From Cyclonatronum proteinivorum (GTDB lineage Bacteria; Bacteroidota; Rhodothermia; Balneolales; Cyclonatronaceae): a stretch of DNA of 64,000 bases. The translations under genes and the position numbers were made by a program. The stretch is taken from NCBI RefSeq assembly GCF_003353065.1, contig NZ_CP027806.1, positions 1,629,353 through 1,693,352 on the forward strand. Reading direction: 5' to 3'. The notes under the pieces are model-generated. The model worked only from the letters and a program-made list of their open reading frames with translations, had not been told where the DNA came from and searched no databases. Numbering within the stretch: the stretch's first letter is position 1; the number at the start of each line of letters is the position of its first letter. Below, piece by piece: positions 5,922 to 52,638 of this stretch.

Positions 5922-6639
5922 ATGAAACCAACCCAACTGATCCATAGCTTTTTGCCCAGCCTGCTGAGCGGCCTGCTCCTCGGGCTTTCCGTGAATCATA
6001 TCTCCGGAATCTCGTTTGCGTTTTTGCTGCCGGTTTGCCTTGTGGGACTCTTTACAGCTCTCGAAAAGCAAACTACCCGGAGGAGCTGGTTTTTGCACGG
6101 GTATGTTTTTTCATTTGTATCTCTTTTCCTCGCGCTGATTGGCTTTATCTGGGTTGAGCCCGTCGCGGGATGCATCATGGTGATTCTTGCTGCTGCCGTA
6201 TATGCTTTGCCTTTCGTGCTGCTTCATGGTATTCGCCGCAGGGTAAAGACAAACAGCGGATGGGGTTTTCTGGTACTGGCTCTTATCTGGCCGCCGTATG
6301 CCTGGTTTGTGAAGGAGCTTTGGCTGGGCTTCCCGATTACGCTGTATGCCAATGCACTCGCCAATTACCCGGTCTTCATTCAGTTTATTGATATTACAGG
6401 CTACACCGGAATTTCGGCCTGGGTGATTGCGCTGAACGCGGGTGTTTTCCTTCTATTCAAAGCTGTTTTGCAAAACGGGGTCTCAGACCTGCTTCACAAC
6501 AAGCTGTCTCAAAAACTGCTGGCCGGTACCCTTGTCTGGTTCGCGCTGCCGCTGCTTTATGCCTGGTACGCCTACGCCGTGCTGTCCGGCACATTTCAGT
6601 AGGAACCGTTCCGCTTCGGCAGGGGCTCAGTTTTTATAG
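5922..6639 (+). pseudogene. N-terminal remnant of apolipoprotein N-acyltransferase, deleted and IS-truncated
   Basis: The open frame encodes 226 residues with six to seven hydrophobic segments and the Lnt-type signature WPPYAWFVKELWLGFPITLYANALANYP...Q.IDITG.TGISAWVIALN, which is the membrane domain preceding the nitrilase fold. It stops at 6602. In another frame the next bases (6595-6639) encode VGTVPLRQGLSFY, a motif from the far C-terminus of Lnt, so the whole catalytic domain has been deleted. The left end of an IS5-family element begins at 6638. It cannot be a functional acyltransferase. It could instead have been one of two paralogues, the other being the remnant at 431-793. Confidence 0.75.
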
Positions 6640-7954
6640 AAAGCTTTGCAAAACCCCTACGGAATAAATTTTGGGTATAAATTCTTAATATTATTGCATA
6701 TAAGCTTGTTTTTTCGGATGGTTATTGGTACCTTAAAGTAGGCTATAATATTGATATTATTACAGATATGAACACAAATAATCAACTCGGATTTTCAGAT
6801 GAGCTGCTTGCCCGCAGGCGTAAATCATCTCAAATGGCTGCTAAGCTAACTAAAATTGATAAACTCATCGACTGGCAACCTATTTACCAAAAACTCTCGG
6901 TTATTGATCAAACCAGCAAAATCAAAGGCGGGCGTCCCCGAAAACCAATCAGTTGGATGGTTAAGGCGGTCTTTCTGCAATCATTATTCAACCTTAGCAA
7001 TCCCCAGTTGGAAGATCAGCTCATCGACCGCTTAAGCTTCCAACGGTTTGTAGGAATCAATCTCGACCATGATATTCCGGATTTTACTACCTTCTGGAGG
7101 TTTAAAGAAGCCATCATACAGCATGAACTGGGAGATATTATTTTTGATCAGATTACGGCTCAGCTTGAGCAAAGAGGCATGATGTTAAAACGAGGTACGG
7201 TTGTTGATGCAACCATCATCAACTCCGTGAACCGGCCTCTTAAAAAAGAGCGGCGCCAGGAGCTATCCGAACAACCCTCTTCACAAATTGACACTGACGC
7301 ACATTCCACCAAAAAGGGAAACCGCTATTATTTTGGGTATAAAGGGCATATTGGCGTTGATGTAGCTACTAAACTCATCAGAAAACAGCGATTCACGCCA
7401 GCAAACAGGAATGATCAGATTCCCCTTGACGAACTCATCAGTTATGACGAAATGAGTTTATGGGGCGATAAAGCCTACTATCTGGAGTCCTACAAAGAGG
7501 CGTCCCGCAAAGATGGATGGTTTTACGGCGTACTGAATAAACCGCAGAAAGGTCAAAAACTATCTAAAAAACAAAAAAGGAAGAATAAGCAGTACAGCAG
7601 CGTACGGGCTCAGGTGGAGCATCCGTTTGCATGGATGAAAACCAAAGCAGGATTAGTAGCCATGCAAGCCAAAAACATTGCCAGGAATGCTTTCACCTTT
7701 GCCAATAATTGTGCCTGCTGGAATGTAATCAGGGCCTTATGGATATTGAGCAAACCCAAACCTTTCGGGGGATTGGTATGTCGATGAACCGGCAAACAGG
7801 TCAAAGCAGCCATCAAAAAGGGTCAAATATGCTCAATATAGACCCGTTTGGCGATGGTACTTCCAAAATCTCCCAGTTTGCGAAAACACTATATTCAAAA
7901 ATCCCGGAGCAATTTGATTCTGGGGTGATTCCATGAACTTTTTCAAAGCCTTCT
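6638..7954 (+). mobile_element. IS5-family insertion sequence, copy 1 (1317 bp)
   Basis: The ends were set by the imperfect terminal inverted repeat: AGAAAGCTTTGCAAAA at the left and TTTTTCAAAGCCTTCT at the right, with 14 of 16 positions pairing. The second copy at 13329-14645 has the same length (1317 bp) and matching ends, which supports these limits. One transposase gene fills most of the element, leaving about 130 bp of leader and 167 bp of tail. A target duplication could not be read with confidence. The element abuts the Lnt remnant. Confidence 0.85.
6768..7787 (+). CDS. IS5-family DDE transposase (copy 1)
   Basis: This 339-residue transposase cuts and joins DNA at the ends of its IS. 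It has an N-terminal DUF772-type region (residues ~60-120, GGRPRKPISWMVKAVFLQSLFNLS, DIPDFTTFWRFKEAI) and the DDE catalytic triad at Asp147 (VVDATIINS), Asp234 (SLWGDKAYY) and Glu284 (RAQVEHPFAWMKTKAG). The length is normal for the family and no frameshift is seen, so it may be active. It differs from copy 2 at a modest number of residues (for example Q/K, N/K and A/G changes), so the two are not a very recent duplication. Confidence 0.95.
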   Translation: MNTNNQLGFSDELLARRRKSSQMAAKLTKIDKLIDWQPIYQKLSVIDQTSKIKGGRPRKPISWMVKAVFLQSLFNLSNPQLEDQLIDRLSFQRFVGINLDHDIPDFTTFWRFKEAIIQHELGDIIFDQITAQLEQRGMMLKRGTVVDATIINSVNRPLKKERRQELSEQPSSQIDTDAHSTKKGNRYYFGYKGHIGVDVATKLIRKQRFTPANRNDQIPLDELISYDEMSLWGDKAYYLESYKEASRKDGWFYGVLNKPQKGQKLSKKQKRKNKQYSSVRAQVEHPFAWMKTKAGLVAMQAKNIARNAFTFANNCACWNVIRALWILSKPKPFGGLVCR

Positions 7955-8391
7955 TGTAGCACGTATCGGAACAGCAGCAAGTTTGCAAACACATTTTACC
8001 GAAGTTGTATAAGTATTTCCATTCACGACGGGGCAAAACACGAAAACAGAACACGCTATTTTAATGCCATTTTGGGTACTTAAATAATTTCTTTTTAATC
8101 GATAAAGCAAGTAATGTTTAATTTTTACAACTTCGGGGAGTATATTGTTGATCGCTCAATAATATGTTAGTATGCTTATTGAAGTCTCAAAATAAATGTT
8201 TGAATCATACGGAATTGCGAGTCATGACTTTTGGATGAGTGCAAATGAGGCTTTCTTTATTCTCTAAAAACCTGGTAAACCCATTTATTGGTGTATGAAT
8301 AGAAAAAATATCAACAAATAATTCTAATTCACCAAGTAGTAACAATAAACGAATATTTATATATAAGTATTATTTAAGTAGGTAGGTTTAA
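7955..8391. other. Gene-free spacer
   Basis: This AT-rich spacer lies between IS copy 1 and the AT-rich gene. I see no convincing ORF, tRNA or terminator. The AT content rises towards the downstream gene, so the boundary of the foreign-looking DNA may lie here. Confidence 0.5.
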
Positions 8392-10386
8392 ATGGTTGGA
8401 AAAAAACTAAAAAAAGGATTATTCTACACAATGTTAGGCTTTGGGGCTTTAGGACTTAATTTTTGTGATAAATCACCAACAGATCCTGGTGAAGATCCAA
8501 ACACGCCATCGACAATAACTTGGACGCCGAATCAAGCAATAGATGGAAAAGAAACAACATTTAATCTAAGCGTGTCGGACCCAGATGGTTTGGAAAGAGT
8601 AATAGCTAGGGGACTAGACTCAGATTTCTTTAAAGAATATAATAATCTGTCAGGAAACTCACTAAATGAGCAAATAACAAAAAACTACGAACTAGGAAAT
8701 GATAGCCCAATCACAAAAAGATATGAGATAATAGCATTTGACAAACTAGGTGAAGAAGTATCAAAAATAAACAATGTAACAATACAACCTGCGGCAATAA
8801 CAAACCTTCCTCCAACAATAAATATTGAAGTAACATATGAAAGAAACTGGCAAGAAGACCCAATAGACTTTAAAATAACAGCAACAGACGACTTCGAAGA
8901 TATAGGGTCAATAAGATTAGACTTTGGAGACGGAAACATAAACGAGTTTAACGTCGGAAAACAAGCAATAGATACAGTGCTGACTCACCAATACTTAGCA
9001 GGAGGAGACTTTAACTGGCAAGCAACAGCAAAAGATGTATTAGGACTTCAAGATACAGACCAAGGAACACTAAACATAACACCTCTATATGATGTAAATG
9101 TATTATCAGAACTAGTAACATATGTAGGAAGCATAAACGGAGATATAGTAGAGCAAGACAACACTGCAAGCATGAAATTTACAAGCAGAGACGGCTCAAT
9201 AGTAAGAGAATTCAATTCAGAAAACGGACAAATAACAGGAAGAATACCAGCAGGAGAATTCGAAGTAGAATTCACATCAGACTACAGCAAATTAATAAGA
9301 ATGAAAGTAGACAGAAGCTTTTATCCAGACGAGTGGCAATACCTAAGCTTTATGAATGTCGATGATGGCGCTCCAGGAGAACATTCCTGGGTAGTAAGAA
9401 GCTATCCTGAAAATAATCCAAACTACAGATCAGGCGATCAAAACTGGTACTTTGACATCAACGGAGACATAGATAGTCGCGCTCAAATAGTAAAAGGAGC
9501 AATAGCAGACCAAGGATGGATAGGAGGAGAAAGATTCATACCAGCAGAAGAACTCTTAACAATGATGACTTATCAAATGAATGATATAGGCATTTTAAGA
9601 GTTCCAAGAACAAAAAACAACGTGGGCGTAGAACTAACTCAAAAATTTGTATATAATATGGGGAATCCTTACTTTGACTGTTCAGATTGGGATGGAGCAT
9701 CAGAAAGACCAGATGAATGCGTTGATCAAAAAAGCGTTGAAAGAGGAAATATAGATCCTTCAGACCTTCCAGACGGAGGAGTAAACCCTCCGGGAGTAAT
9801 ACCTAGAAACCCAATTCAAGCAGAACAAAGCTTTGATAACTATGTAGCCCTGATGAAAGATATTTTTAACAGTGATATCGTAGCGGGAAATCCTTATAAT
9901 ATAGAAGTCATAAAAGGATACTCACCAGAACTAACAGATTACTTAAGAGGATGGTATGTACCAACAAGCGCAGGAGGAGTTAATTTGGTTAGTCCTGAAG
10001 ATAATGTATTTTTCACATCTCACAACATGGGTGCAGGCACAGAATTTTACAATGGTGGCATAGCCGTTGGCGGAGCATTTAATTATACTAGGGCAAGCAG
10101 CATGTTTGTAGGAGGTTCTTTAGGGGGCTTTTTAAATGAAGCAACGCACTGGTTCTCATCAAGAGAAGGATTCCCGTGCGTTTACTCAATAAGAGATAGA
10201 ACAGGAGGAACATGTGGGGGTGTAGATTTTCCTTTGGAATTCACAGACTTAGATATAATATTTAATAAAATAGCAGTAAGCTTTGGAACATTCTCACAAA
10301 AACAAAAAATATACTTTGACAGACAAATGAGTGCTAATGGACTTGCAAATAGAGACGGATTTAACACAACATTACCTAGGGAATAA
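8392..10386 (+). CDS. Putative exported lipoprotein with PKD-like domain, atypical codon use
   Basis: This 664-residue protein has a basic-hydrophobic leader and a cysteine at residue 25 (GALGLNFCDKSPTDPG), which suggests a lipoprotein although the -1 residue is unusual. Two Ig/PKD-like segments follow (STITWTPNQAIDGKETTFNLSVSDPDG; LDFGDGNINEF...VLTHQYLAGGDFNWQATAKD). The C-terminal half is unrecognised and includes a Cys-bearing stretch (NPYFDCSDWDG...DECVDQ) and FLNEATHWFSS. That last motif superficially recalls a zinc-peptidase helix but lacks HExxH. Codon choice is striking: AGA, ATA, GGA, ACA, CCA, GTA and CTA dominate, unlike the CGC/GGC-rich neighbours. It lies between the two IS5 copies. 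Function is unknown and acquisition by transfer is likely. Confidence 0.85.
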   Translation: MVGKKLKKGLFYTMLGFGALGLNFCDKSPTDPGEDPNTPSTITWTPNQAIDGKETTFNLSVSDPDGLERVIARGLDSDFFKEYNNLSGNSLNEQITKNYELGNDSPITKRYEIIAFDKLGEEVSKINNVTIQPAAITNLPPTINIEVTYERNWQEDPIDFKITATDDFEDIGSIRLDFGDGNINEFNVGKQAIDTVLTHQYLAGGDFNWQATAKDVLGLQDTDQGTLNITPLYDVNVLSELVTYVGSINGDIVEQDNTASMKFTSRDGSIVREFNSENGQITGRIPAGEFEVEFTSDYSKLIRMKVDRSFYPDEWQYLSFMNVDDGAPGEHSWVVRSYPENNPNYRSGDQNWYFDINGDIDSRAQIVKGAIADQGWIGGERFIPAEELLTMMTYQMNDIGILRVPRTKNNVGVELTQKFVYNMGNPYFDCSDWDGASERPDECVDQKSVERGNIDPSDLPDGGVNPPGVIPRNPIQAEQSFDNYVALMKDIFNSDIVAGNPYNIEVIKGYSPELTDYLRGWYVPTSAGGVNLVSPEDNVFFTSHNMGAGTEFYNGGIAVGGAFNYTRASSMFVGGSLGGFLNEATHWFSSREGFPCVYSIRDRTGGTCGGVDFPLEFTDLDIIFNKIAVSFGTFSQKQKIYFDRQMSANGLANRDGFNTTLPRE

Positions 10387-11158: not shown

Positions 11159-11298
11159 AAAAAATTCATGCAAATCAGGTATTCGGCAGGTTTTGGCGCT
11201 TGCAAAAAAAAACAGTTCGCAAACAAAGAACCATCGGTTTTATCTTGCTATTATTCTGTGGTAAATCGCAAGCATACACGTCAGGAAAACCTCAAGAT

Positions 11299-11682
11299 AT
11301 GGAAGCCCTCCGCTACACCGTCATCAAATCAAAAGCGCAGTACGACAGCTACTGCGCCCTTTTGGAAGAAATCCTTTTTTCAGATCGATCCGCAGAAAGA
11401 GAAGATGAAGTCGAGCTGCTTACCTTGCTGATTGGGCATTACGATGCGCAGCAGCGGGAATCGATCAGCGAGGATCCGGTTACCCTCATCAAGGCCCTGA
11501 TGCAGGGGCACGGCCTGAGCCAAAACGATCTTGCTGCCATCGTGAACCGCTCCAAGGGCTATGTTTCGGAAATCCTCAACCGCAAAAAAGCCCTGCCCAA
11601 GGATGTGATTCGGATACTTTCGGCGCATTTCAAAATTAGTCAGGAAGCGCTGAACAGGCCGTATGGGCTGACGATGGGGTAG
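11299..11682 (+). CDS. HigA-like XRE-family antitoxin (orphan)
   Basis: This 127-residue protein was started at ATG 11299 (MEALRYTVIKSKAQY). The N-terminal half is helical (ALLEEILF...EVELLTLLIGHYD), typical of the HigA2/HigA group. An XRE helix-turn-helix follows at ~68-120 (LIKALMQGHGLSQNDLAAIVNRSKGYVSEILNRKKALPKDVIRILSAHFKIS). Such proteins bind operator DNA and neutralise a HigB mRNA interferase, which in this gene order would lie just upstream. That stretch holds no intact toxin, so the gene is either orphaned or acts as a plain regulator. An operator-like inverted repeat lies at 11136-11158. An upstream in-frame ATG at 11200 would add an unlikely 33 residues. Confidence 0.8.
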   Translation: MEALRYTVIKSKAQYDSYCALLEEILFSDRSAEREDEVELLTLLIGHYDAQQRESISEDPVTLIKALMQGHGLSQNDLAAIVNRSKGYVSEILNRKKALPKDVIRILSAHFKISQEALNRPYGLTMG

Positions 11683-12950: not shown

Positions 12951-13328
12951 TATAGAAGGTCGTATTTGTTCACAAGAACACAAAATTAATGGGTATTGGC
13001 GATTTGAAAGCCCAAAAAATAGTTATTGATGCAAATTATGCCAAAAAACGCTTTGTATTGCAAATTTCGATAGAAACAAGCAATGCACCTTGCTACAGCA
13101 TAGCTGAATTTATGTGAAATTTAAGTTTTGATCTTACTCCGAAAAGTCCATTGTAAGATTTTTACCCCTCTTCATTGGTGATAGAAGCCATTTTTTGTTG
13201 AAGTGTACTTATAGAAGCTAGCTCTTATTTTGCATTTTACGAACCAATCACACCTTTCTGTTCAATTAACCCGCTCCAATTTCGCCCTAATTCATTAAAT
13301 TGAAACCAACTCATGAATTTAAACTATT

Positions 13329-14645
13329 AGAAACCTTTGCAAAACCTCTACGCGGCAAATATGGGACATAAATTATTAATATTATTACATATAGGCTTGT
13401 AAATTCACCTACTTATTAGTATTTTATATTAGGTTATAGTATTGATAATACTATAGATATGAAGACAACCAATCAACTCGGATTTTCTGATGAACTGCTT
13501 GCCCGCAGGCGTAAATCATCTCAAATGGCTGCCAAGCTAATTAAAATTGACAAGCTCATTGACTGGCAACCTATTTACCAAAAACTTTCGGTTATTGATC
13601 AAACCAGTAAAACCAAAGGCGGGCGTCCCCGAAAGCCAGTCAGTTGGATGGTTAAAGCGGTGTTTCTGCAATCATTATTCAACCTAAGCAATCCCCAGTT
13701 GGAAGATCAGCTCATCGATCGCTTAAGCTTCCAACGGTTTGTAGGAATCAATCTCGACCATGATATTCCCGATTTTACTACATTTTGGAGGTTTAAGGAA
13801 GCCATCATACAGCATGGACTTGGAGATATCATTTTTGATCAGATTACAGGGCAACTTGAGCAAAGAGGCATGATGCTAAAACGTGGTACCGTTGTGGATG
13901 CAACGATCATCAACTCCGTGAACCGGCCTCTTAAAAAAGAGCGGCGCCAGGAGCTGTCCGAAAAACCCTCATCACAAATTGACACCGACGCCCATTCTAC
14001 CAAAAAGGGGAAACGCTATTATTTCGGGTATAAAGGGCATATTGGCGTTGATGTAGGTACTAAACTCATCAGGAAACAGCGATTCACGCCTGCACACAGA
14101 AATGATCAAAAACCCCTTGACGAACTCATCAGTTATGATGAAATGAGCTTATGGGGTGATAAGGCCTACTATCTGGAGTCCTACAAAGAGGCGTCCCGCA
14201 AAGACGGATGGTTTTACGGTGTTCTGAATAAACCGAAGAAAGGTCAAAAGCTATCTAAAAAACAAAAAAGGAAGAATAAGCAGTACAGCAGCGTCCGGGC
14301 TCAGGTAGAGCATCCGTTTGCATGGATGAAAACGAAAGCTGGTTTAGTGGCTATGCAAGCCAAAAACATAGCCAGAAATGCTTTCACTTTTGCCAATAAC
14401 TGTGCCTGCTGGAATGTGACAAGGGCATTATGGATTTTGAGCAAACACAAACCTTTCGGGGGATTGGTATGTCGATGAACCATCAATTGGGGATAAATAA
14501 CCCACAAATTGGACGAAATAGGGCTTATTTGAGCCTGTGTAAGAGGTCATTTCAGGAAAAATGCCCAATTCCCATTGCTCTTTGTAGATGCAATCTGGTG
14601 CAAAAACACTGATGGAAGTGAACACTACCTTTTTCAAAGCGTTCT
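13329..14645 (+). mobile_element. IS5-family insertion sequence, copy 2 (1317 bp)
   Basis: Same family, orientation and exact length as 6638-7954. The left end is AGAAACCTTTGCAAAA and the right end TTTTTCAAAGCGTTCT (13 of 16 pair). The leader and tail differ clearly from copy 1, while the transposase genes are highly similar. With copy 1 it brackets about 5.4 kb of atypical DNA. Confidence 0.85.
13459..14478 (+). CDS. IS5-family DDE transposase (copy 2)
   Basis: This is a 339-residue transposase, full length and uninterrupted. The DDE motifs are VVDATIINS (Asp147), SLWGDKAYY (Asp234) and RAQVEHPFAWMK (Glu284), with the same N-terminal GGRPRKPVSWMVKAVFLQ and DIPDFTTFWRF blocks as copy 1. Amino-acid differences from copy 1 are scattered, which fits independent copies in the genome rather than a recent tandem event. 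It could mobilise both copies in trans. Confidence 0.95.
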   Translation: MKTTNQLGFSDELLARRRKSSQMAAKLIKIDKLIDWQPIYQKLSVIDQTSKTKGGRPRKPVSWMVKAVFLQSLFNLSNPQLEDQLIDRLSFQRFVGINLDHDIPDFTTFWRFKEAIIQHGLGDIIFDQITGQLEQRGMMLKRGTVVDATIINSVNRPLKKERRQELSEKPSSQIDTDAHSTKKGKRYYFGYKGHIGVDVGTKLIRKQRFTPAHRNDQKPLDELISYDEMSLWGDKAYYLESYKEASRKDGWFYGVLNKPKKGQKLSKKQKRKNKQYSSVRAQVEHPFAWMKTKAGLVAMQAKNIARNAFTFANNCACWNVTRALWILSKHKPFGGLVCR

Positions 14646-48465: not shown

Positions 48466-49566
48466 ATGGATAAACTAATAAGCTGGCATCAGGAATTTTA
48501 TCAGCAAAGAGATTTTAAACCTGACGAATGTGTTCCTCTATACAAGCTTAGGCCAACCAAGAAAGAATTTGAAGCTTTAACATCTGTTCTGAGGGCGTTT
48601 GTTGCAGAAAGAACGCCCTTTATGTCTGTCAATACAATCATCGATACCTGTCCGCTATTCAATAAACTGTTTGTTTTATATGCTGCTGAATGGTGGAAGA
48701 GAAAATATTCCGGAGGTCACTGGACCTGGAAGCATATTATTGATGATTTGGGTATTGAAGAAGATGAAATTACACCCCAAAAGCGCAGCGTGTGTGTAAG
48801 CAGGGGGTTGAGCAGATGGAACCTAAAAATAGCAGACACTTCCGGAAAGAGGTTTTTGGGCGCAATTGCAATACAGGGTGGCTTACCCATTCATTTTTTG
48901 ACCTCACAGGAAGGAAATATCTACCGGGTGCTGGAAAGGCTGGTTAAACATGCAGAGGGTGCGGAGGTTTCGTCGTCAAGACTTGAAACTTGGGCGGAAG
49001 AGCTTCAATATTTTCTGCCACATACTTATCGAAAAAAGGAAATTTATGCATTGCTTGCACAGGTCGTTGAGGTACTTTTCAACATTAAGCGAAAAGCTTC
49101 CGATCAAACCACTAAGGCAATTTTAGCTGAATGGCGGTCGAATCACAGCAAGTGGTTGACCGAGCTGCCGATAACGGCGCCGTACGAAGAAATTGACAGA
49201 CTTATTTCAAAGCTGTTGGGTGTAGTTGCGGCTACGAACGAAAAGCGTACGATATCTGACGATTTTCTAACCATCCACAGAAATCTCATTATCAATGATA
49301 AGGGTAGGCTGACATGCAAGGGGATCATTGAGATTGCAGGCACTATTTCGGCAGAGCAATTGCTAAACAAGTTTAATTACAAAGTGCCGGAAAACAACCC
49401 TTTTGTGTTAAATGTGCAGCTAAGCATAGGTAGCTATGATGAGCACCTGACGTTGCATTCCGTTATTGGCAACAGTAAATACAGCTCATCCGTAAAATCA
49501 ATACAGATCAGAGAGGAAGCTTTTTTCGATCAGATTATTTTCTCAACTTTCGCACTTCAAATTTAG
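48466..49566 (+). pseudogene. IS-truncated large protein, STY4851/ECs_5259-like N-terminus
   Basis: The remaining 366 residues include LYAAEWWKRKYSGGHWTWKHIIDDLG, then KRSVCVSRGLSRWNLKIADTSGKRFLGAIAIQGGLPIHFL. These blocks resemble the N-terminal part of the STY4851/ECs_5259 (YjiT-type) family of proteins, which are usually more than 1000 residues and often lie in defence loci. The reading frame ends inside the left terminal repeat of the IS4-family element (IS at 49542), so the last few residues are IS-encoded. No continuation is found beyond the IS. The assignment is by memory of motif patterns and is tentative. Confidence 0.6.
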
Positions 49567-51621: not shown

Positions 51622-52638
51622 ATGAAAAGGTACTCACATGGAGAGCTTTTTGAAAGCTTCAGAATTCTTGAGCTCGAGCCTTTCGCGCCAATTGGGCAAG
51701 TTGAAGATGCCCGAAGGGAACTGTCTTTGGTTTGGCAATCGGACCGTTTTCAGGATAATGAAAGCCCGAAAGTTAAAGCCGAAAAGAAAAGGAAAGAGAT
51801 AGATACAGCTTACGAAATCATCCTAAGCTGCTACAATCATAACACTGAGAGGTACCTGAAAGAGCAGATAAAAGCTGAATCCAGAAAACGAACAGCTCAA
51901 TATAAATCGGTCTATGGTGCGGGGGCTGATAAAAAACCTGATGCAGCCTTACATTATTTCTCTTTTAAGAATATAGTTATTGCATTGTTTTTGGCATTTG
52001 GTATGGCTTTCCTCGTAATACCTTCGGATGAAGATCCGGAACTAAGCATTTCAGATGACATCGCTGAAGTTGAAATACCGATTGATGAAGCAGACCCGGA
52101 AGTTATTCAGCTAAGTGAGTTTATTGAAGCGTTTATGCTGGAACCGAACGGGCTTAGATCGTGGATTATGGGGGCAGGTGAAGATACGCCTCAAATTAAA
52201 TGGACATCCTATGGGGTTGTAAGCAGACCTGATTGCGGCAGTAAGGAATCATGCAGACGCGGAACAGTGCGCGTAGCACTGGGCGATACAGAGCTACAGA
52301 ATCTGAGAAACAGACTTGAACCTGTAGAGTGGAGTATTTTTATGAGTTCAGCCAATCTTTCAAAGTTCGGTCCGGAAATAGTTTCAATAAGGCCTCATTG
52401 TGATACGGTTAGCTGTGAATTTGAGTTTGCGGGGCTAATGAGGAGAAACGGCTTTACCCTTAATCAGCTTTGTAGATACAATGCTTACTATGGCAGCAGA
52501 ACGGGATATAGGGTCACAAAAAGCGGAAAAAAAGTTTATGTTCTGTACGAAGAGCACCTTGGCAGCGGTGGTAGGAGTAATAACTTAGAGCTACACCATA
52601 CTCCCCCTGCCAACAACAACGGGCTGTGTGCCTATTAA
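51622..52638 (+). CDS. Membrane protein with J-domain-like N-terminus
   Basis: This 338-residue protein opens with a region that resembles a degenerate J-domain (FESFRILELEPFAPIGQVEDARRELSLVWQSDRFQDNESPKVKAEKKRKEIDTAYEIIL). The canonical HPD is replaced by QSDRF, so stimulation of DnaK is doubtful. A transmembrane helix follows at ~116-132 (NIVIALFLAFGMAFLVIP), then an acidic linker. An extracytoplasmic or cytosolic domain (~155-320) contains cysteine pairs (RPDCGSKESCRR; RPHCDTVSCEFEF) and ends in a flexible Gly/Asn tail. The function is unknown. It lies downstream of the small membrane protein gene. Confidence 0.7.
   Translation: MKRYSHGELFESFRILELEPFAPIGQVEDARRELSLVWQSDRFQDNESPKVKAEKKRKEIDTAYEIILSCYNHNTERYLKEQIKAESRKRTAQYKSVYGAGADKKPDAALHYFSFKNIVIALFLAFGMAFLVIPSDEDPELSISDDIAEVEIPIDEADPEVIQLSEFIEAFMLEPNGLRSWIMGAGEDTPQIKWTSYGVVSRPDCGSKESCRRGTVRVALGDTELQNLRNRLEPVEWSIFMSSANLSKFGPEIVSIRPHCDTVSCEFEFAGLMRRNGFTLNQLCRYNAYYGSRTGYRVTKSGKKVYVLYEEHLGSGGRSNNLELHHTPPANNNGLCAY

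Follow-up and report, generated by a model that had tools for sequence, protein, structure and literature searches.

The gene at 8392–10386 (forward strand) of the window, that is, the whole 64,000-nucleotide stretch of the Cyclonatronum proteinivorum genome analyzed here, is on balance a horizontally acquired accessory surface-lipoprotein gene, one that would have been exchanged among Balneolales-like bacteria rather than imported from a distant phylum. Sequence comparisons support its foreign origin: the gene is an outlier in codon usage, has no counterpart in five same-genus genomes, and has its closest homologue in another genus. The first-pass annotation had singled it out as the clearest case of recently transferred DNA in the window. 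A foreign origin remains supported, and the gene is the strongest outlier sampled, but neither a distant donor nor the IS5 copies as its vehicle found support. The features referred to below, all on the forward strand, are as follows.

6637–7945, +: IS5-like copy 1 (transposase 6768–7787); right end approximate, judged by eye
7965–8166, +: attI-like integron attachment element, ~200 bp; E = 1.5e-42 in its own genome, as one of the six source sequences of the search model
8167–8391, +: AT-rich leader between the attI-like site and the gene
8392–10386, +: putative outer-membrane lipoprotein gene with extreme use of A-ending codons; from the ORF, codon statistics and homologues
8392–8466, +: predicted signal peptide and lipobox-like L-N-F-C (Cys25); from the sequence, Cys25 being invariant in the alignment of relatives
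8809–9069, +: PKD-like Ig-fold domain, aa 140–226; PF18911, E = 1.8e-5, below the gathering score
9091–10383, +: undescribed C-terminal domain, aa 234–664; from alignments, with no family match
11290–11682, +: HTH gene (HTH_3/XRE-type) lying between the gene and IS5-like copy 2; codon usage like that of the host
13328–14635, +: IS5-like copy 2 (transposase 13459–14478); right end approximate, judged by eye

Codon usage and product of the gene

The gene is a single intact ORF running from the ATG at 8392 to the TAA at 10386 and encoding 664 amino acids. Its codon usage was compared with that of 764 ORFs of at least 150 amino acids, a sample of 1.26 Mb or 29% of the 4,294,247-bp single-contig genome. 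The frequency of A at third positions (A3) is 0.506, against 0.171 ± 0.053 for the genome, and the gene is first among the 764 on two measures, A3 and the distance of its codon usage from the genome mean. Its third positions are composed of A (0.51), C (0.17), G (0.08) and T (0.24). The heavy use of AGA, ATA, GGA, ACA, CCA and GTA described in the first-pass annotation is confirmed by the shares of these codons within their amino acids: AGA provides 85% of Arg and ATA 85% of Ile, followed by ACA (79%), GGA (66%), GTA (66%) and CCA (53%), while CAA and AAA are used to 100%. When ranked by A-over-T skew alone the gene is only fourth among the sampled ORFs, so the anomaly is one of A abundance and not of skew as such. 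The bias extends along the entire ORF (A3 of 0.35–0.63 per 60 codons) and ends with it, as the 300 bp upstream have A 0.36 and T 0.36, the 100 bp on the 3' side are T-rich, and the flanking non-coding DNA has no skew. The next most atypical codon usage in the window, far weaker than that of this gene, is found at 48466–49566 and 51622–52638.

The product is likely a surface lipoprotein consisting of a PKD-like stalk and an undescribed C-terminal domain. Lipoboxes were judged by the pattern [LVI][ASTVI][GAS]C after a hydrophobic signal; the protein has a hydrophobic N-terminus and LNFC, with an atypical F at −1, and its relatives have LTGC or LAGC at the same place. The PKD-like part reported earlier is only partly upheld, since the match to PF18911 scores 25.2 bits, short of the 27-bit gathering score (the in-genome paralogue, L002, reaches 28.8 bits). 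The protein thus resembles PKD-domain proteins (PF18911/PF00801) in having an Ig-like domain within a putatively exported protein, but differs from them in this sub-gathering score and in that most of its length is a separate, undescribed domain. That the C-terminal half is unrecognized agrees with our searches of Pfam, NCBIfam, PHROGs and PDB sequences, none of which returned a match to it. Alignments reveal the motifs NPYxIE, N-E (aa 582–583), S-I-R-D and GFN; of the conserved Cys residues and NEATHW motif that had been proposed, N-E alone is largely conserved, the rest of NEATHW is not, and the Cys residues are conserved in part. AlphaFold2, run from a two-row alignment, gave a pLDDT of 30, and with this value and the imperfect lipobox the role proposed for the protein is a reading of its architecture. 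From that architecture we infer lipid anchoring, surface display and a binding or hydrolytic role for the C-terminal domain: the protein would be exported and lipid-anchored at Cys25, and the Ig/PKD stalk would present the Cys-containing C-terminal domain.

Relatives and exchange of the C-terminal domain

The closest homologue belongs to another genus of the same family (genome G008) and is 85% identical in amino acids and 90% identical in nucleotides over 246 bp, being a 99-codon C-terminal fragment at a contig end. Its A3 is 0.50, as opposed to 0.25–0.34 in three neighboring G008 genes. Within the genome itself there is a paralogue that is 42% identical to the 664-residue protein, and the five genomes from its genus contain no homologue of the gene. 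Searching with a profile of the C-terminal half showed a patchy distribution: 8 of the 129 genomes of the order have relatives, as does one further genome of the class, and sampling 394 genomes across the phylum revealed none beyond the class. The only match in a genome-collection scan with two short patterns was the Balneolales MAG CSSed162cmB_534. No homologue of the family was present in the collections of viral contigs, plasmids and phages, and a viral, phage or plasmid carrier was rejected on these grounds. All relatives found are close (same family, order or class), and by the refuting condition set out in the first-pass annotation a distant donor is not supported; the nearest of them shares the odd composition, although its host does not. 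Some family members look broken, namely that of G342 (L079:1549–1800), with stop codons inside the match, and a G353 copy (L077:790–2748), whose N-terminal part is interrupted by an in-frame stop.

Two further relatives bear on the history of the C-terminal domain. The C-terminal 1674 nt of gene G012a are 98.3% identical to the gene of G037, a member of another genus, and the differences between the two are clustered, most of them changing the first or second base of a codon. Directly 3' of the G012a stop codon (G012:C5 ~369 kb, L059/L060) lies a remnant, SVYPGVYYRGANLMLNKEE, that is like the end of the G012b protein. These data support the replacement of the C-terminal module in G012, and the C-terminal domain may be the part of the protein that is exchanged and diversifies. 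A displaced C-terminus was looked for after the window gene and not found. Exchange of C-terminal modules is a feature of polymorphic secreted proteins, to which the replaced module and displaced remnant of G012 are alike; the differences are that the exchanged C-termini come from one homologous family, that such exchange is not seen at the window gene, and that no immunity-like neighbor gene was noticed in an unsystematic look. The G012 and G037 relatives also contain the domain of T9SS-type secreted proteins (Por_Secre_tail, PF18962/TIGR04183), but near the N-terminus, and the window protein does not have it.

attI-like sites in the genome

The attI-like element ends 226 bp upstream of the gene, on the same strand, and lies between IS5-like copy 1 and the gene. 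A search model built from six copies, the window copy among them, finds 12 dispersed copies in the genome (G000) at E ≤ 1.5e-10; to our knowledge a dozen attI-like copies in a single genome is unusual. The copies, for example those at 7965–8166 of the window, L119:8811–9011, L084:18000–18215 and L143:2562–2736, lose their likeness at one common point, usually G|TT (G8166|TT in the window copy), and most are followed by AT-rich accessory genes such as toxin-antitoxin-like pairs and restriction-modification-like genes. Three copies lead into cassettes that were verified by pairing the cassette start with the attC R'' box, the two being complementary at 11/11, 11/11 and 10/11 positions. The start/R'' pairs GTTATAGGGTG/CACCCTATAAC and GTTATAAACCA/TGGTTTATAAC are at the junction of the element itself, and the third cassette (10/11) starts 130 bp beyond it. 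Two more copies have a start/R'' match with one mismatch. One copy has beside it a truncated IntI (L143:2002–2535, G000 753005–753517), a remnant that scores 176 bits and covers the first 170 of 315 positions, with more integrase fragments within 5 kb. The common junction, the verified cassettes and the adjoining truncated integrase together identify the element as attI-like. Above-cut-off matches to an intact IntI come from five related genomes, and the gene family is present in four of these; among the family-lacking genomes, a sample made up of the five from the same genus, IntI is present in one. The dispersed sites and verified cassettes document gene capture of the integron type, of which we found little description in lineages like the Balneolales-like one studied here. 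Elsewhere in the genome, L105:13926–15260 holds a two-gene cassette that ends in a long attC-like hairpin, the second gene of which is the second-strongest codon outlier.

Whether the gene is itself a cassette, inserted at 8166|8167 and with its own attC since decayed or deleted, is rather doubtful. In its favor are the attI-like site that directly precedes the gene in the same orientation, the equivalent sites that lead into verified cassettes, and the AT-rich leader. With integron platforms (IntI/attI/attC) and their first-position cassettes the locus has in common the attI-like site, an IntI remnant elsewhere in the genome and the verified cassettes at sister sites. The difference is at the other end: the sister cassettes have an attC with R'', but a complement search over the 9 kb downstream of the gene gave no attC with the expected R'', the sole match to the complement AGCATACTAAC having two mismatches and lying inside the ORF. 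A structural attC scan of the 3' flank remained at shuffle level; as the scanner is weak and ranks even the verified attC sites barely above shuffles, this negative counts for little. A regular-expression search for attC sites returned none, and in an Rfam search no family passed its gathering score. Further evidence comes from the junction, where the 20 nt from G8166 are, apart from three mismatches, those found after a cassette attC at L084:13157, at another attI copy. This resemblance suggests that the site is empty, although a cassette start may instead be shared. The gene, lacking an attC of its own, is thus a candidate cassette only, and its capture by an integron is not demonstrated. 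Within the favored history of exchange among Balneolales-like bacteria, the attI-like sites would be the places at which AT-rich accessory genes entered the host genome, and the arrival of this gene could have been integron-assisted.

Third-base preference, donors and carriers

A gene whose codon usage deviates from that of its genome is usually taken to come from a distant donor. Nearly all members of this family within the order depart from the codon style of their hosts, and most of them prefer T and not A. T is preferred in the gene or its C-terminal part in G012, G037, G017, G006 and G353b (T of 0.53–0.79 at four-fold sites), and is not in the sampled host genes; A is preferred in the window gene and the G008 fragment. 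The preference may also begin part-way: G037 and G012b are host-like over their first 900 nt and T-rich thereafter, the paralogue in the same genome has an A3 of 0.04–0.15 in its first 300 codons and 0.30–0.35 in the next 300, and G353a is A-rich and then T-rich. A distant member from G450 has host-like codon usage. With close relatives that depart from their hosts toward different bases, the distant-donor reading would mislead here. The family bias could reflect either recent imports from donors with such usage or its upkeep in place, and the odd codon usage was probably a property of the gene lineage already before its arrival.

Were the bias made in place, by a strand-asymmetric or hypermutating process or by selection on synonymous sites, it would say little about transfer. 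We consider this unlikely as an account of the window gene, although several observations argue for it. The bias is family-wide, linked to the module and directed to A (window, G008) or T (G006, G012, G017, G037, G353b) against the hosts. It is bounded by the ORF and has been kept through differences at 29–43% of four-fold sites: 12 of 28 such sites differ between the window and G008 copies, both nonetheless A-rich, and 35 of 119 between the C-terminal parts of G012b and G037, both nonetheless T-rich. Against it, two-fold sites in the gene have ~44% C at C/T positions and 94% A at A/G positions, unlike the product of simple one-strand deamination, and the adjacent non-coding DNA is unskewed. 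Nor were constraints from overlapping frames or mRNA folding seen. Compared with synonymous shuffles, the other five frames have no depletion of stops in one consistent frame, on which basis an overlapping gene was rejected, and the mean folding energy equals that of the shuffles, so that selection on mRNA folding was likewise rejected. A diversity-generating retroelement was also rejected: G000 has no RVT_1 match, hence no reverse transcriptase and no retroelement-based diversifier.

A broader, speculative proposal, to which we attach low confidence, is that the undescribed C-terminal domain defines a family written in an extreme non-host third-base style in nearly every host of the order, with some members favoring A and others T, and with several taking up the style only part-way along the gene, near the C-terminal module. 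If true, a gene-specific process would set and keep codon style independently of the genome, candidates being targeted mutation, synonymous-site selection and the asymmetric replication of a mobile carrier that has escaped notice. A codon pattern that is maintained and not inherited would point to a process at work on individual genes.

That the gene came recently from a distant phylum, whether from an archaeon or from a low-GC bacterium with A-ending codons, is very unlikely in the light of the 42% identical paralogue in the same genome and the 85% identical homologue in the same family. Some low-GC lineages have codon usage of a similar A-ending shape, which that of the gene resembles, and the leader and trailer are AT-rich, as such an import would have it, but the collections searched, including the two-pattern scan, yielded no homologue outside the class. 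No donor genome with the codon usage of the gene was found. Exchange among Balneolales-like bacteria is the reading we retain.

A composite transposon of IS5 is scarcely credible as the vehicle of the gene, since the two same-orientation copies around the region are 9.4% diverged (90.6% identical over 1154 bp) and copy 2 starts 2.9 kb downstream, separated from the gene by host-like sequence that includes the HTH gene. The end of copy 1 is ~450 bp upstream of the gene. The IS5 flanking noted in the first-pass annotation holds insofar as two copies enclose the region, but not as a mobile unit, and their arrival would have been independent of the gene. The CGC/GGC-rich neighbors that it placed on both sides are found at most downstream, where GC is 44–50% to 13 kb and 57–60% from 15 kb; upstream it is only 43–50%. 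A 198-bp piece of an apolipoprotein N-acyltransferase-like gene occurs twice, at 6402–6600 of the window and at L015:14917–15114, the two being 96.5% identical.
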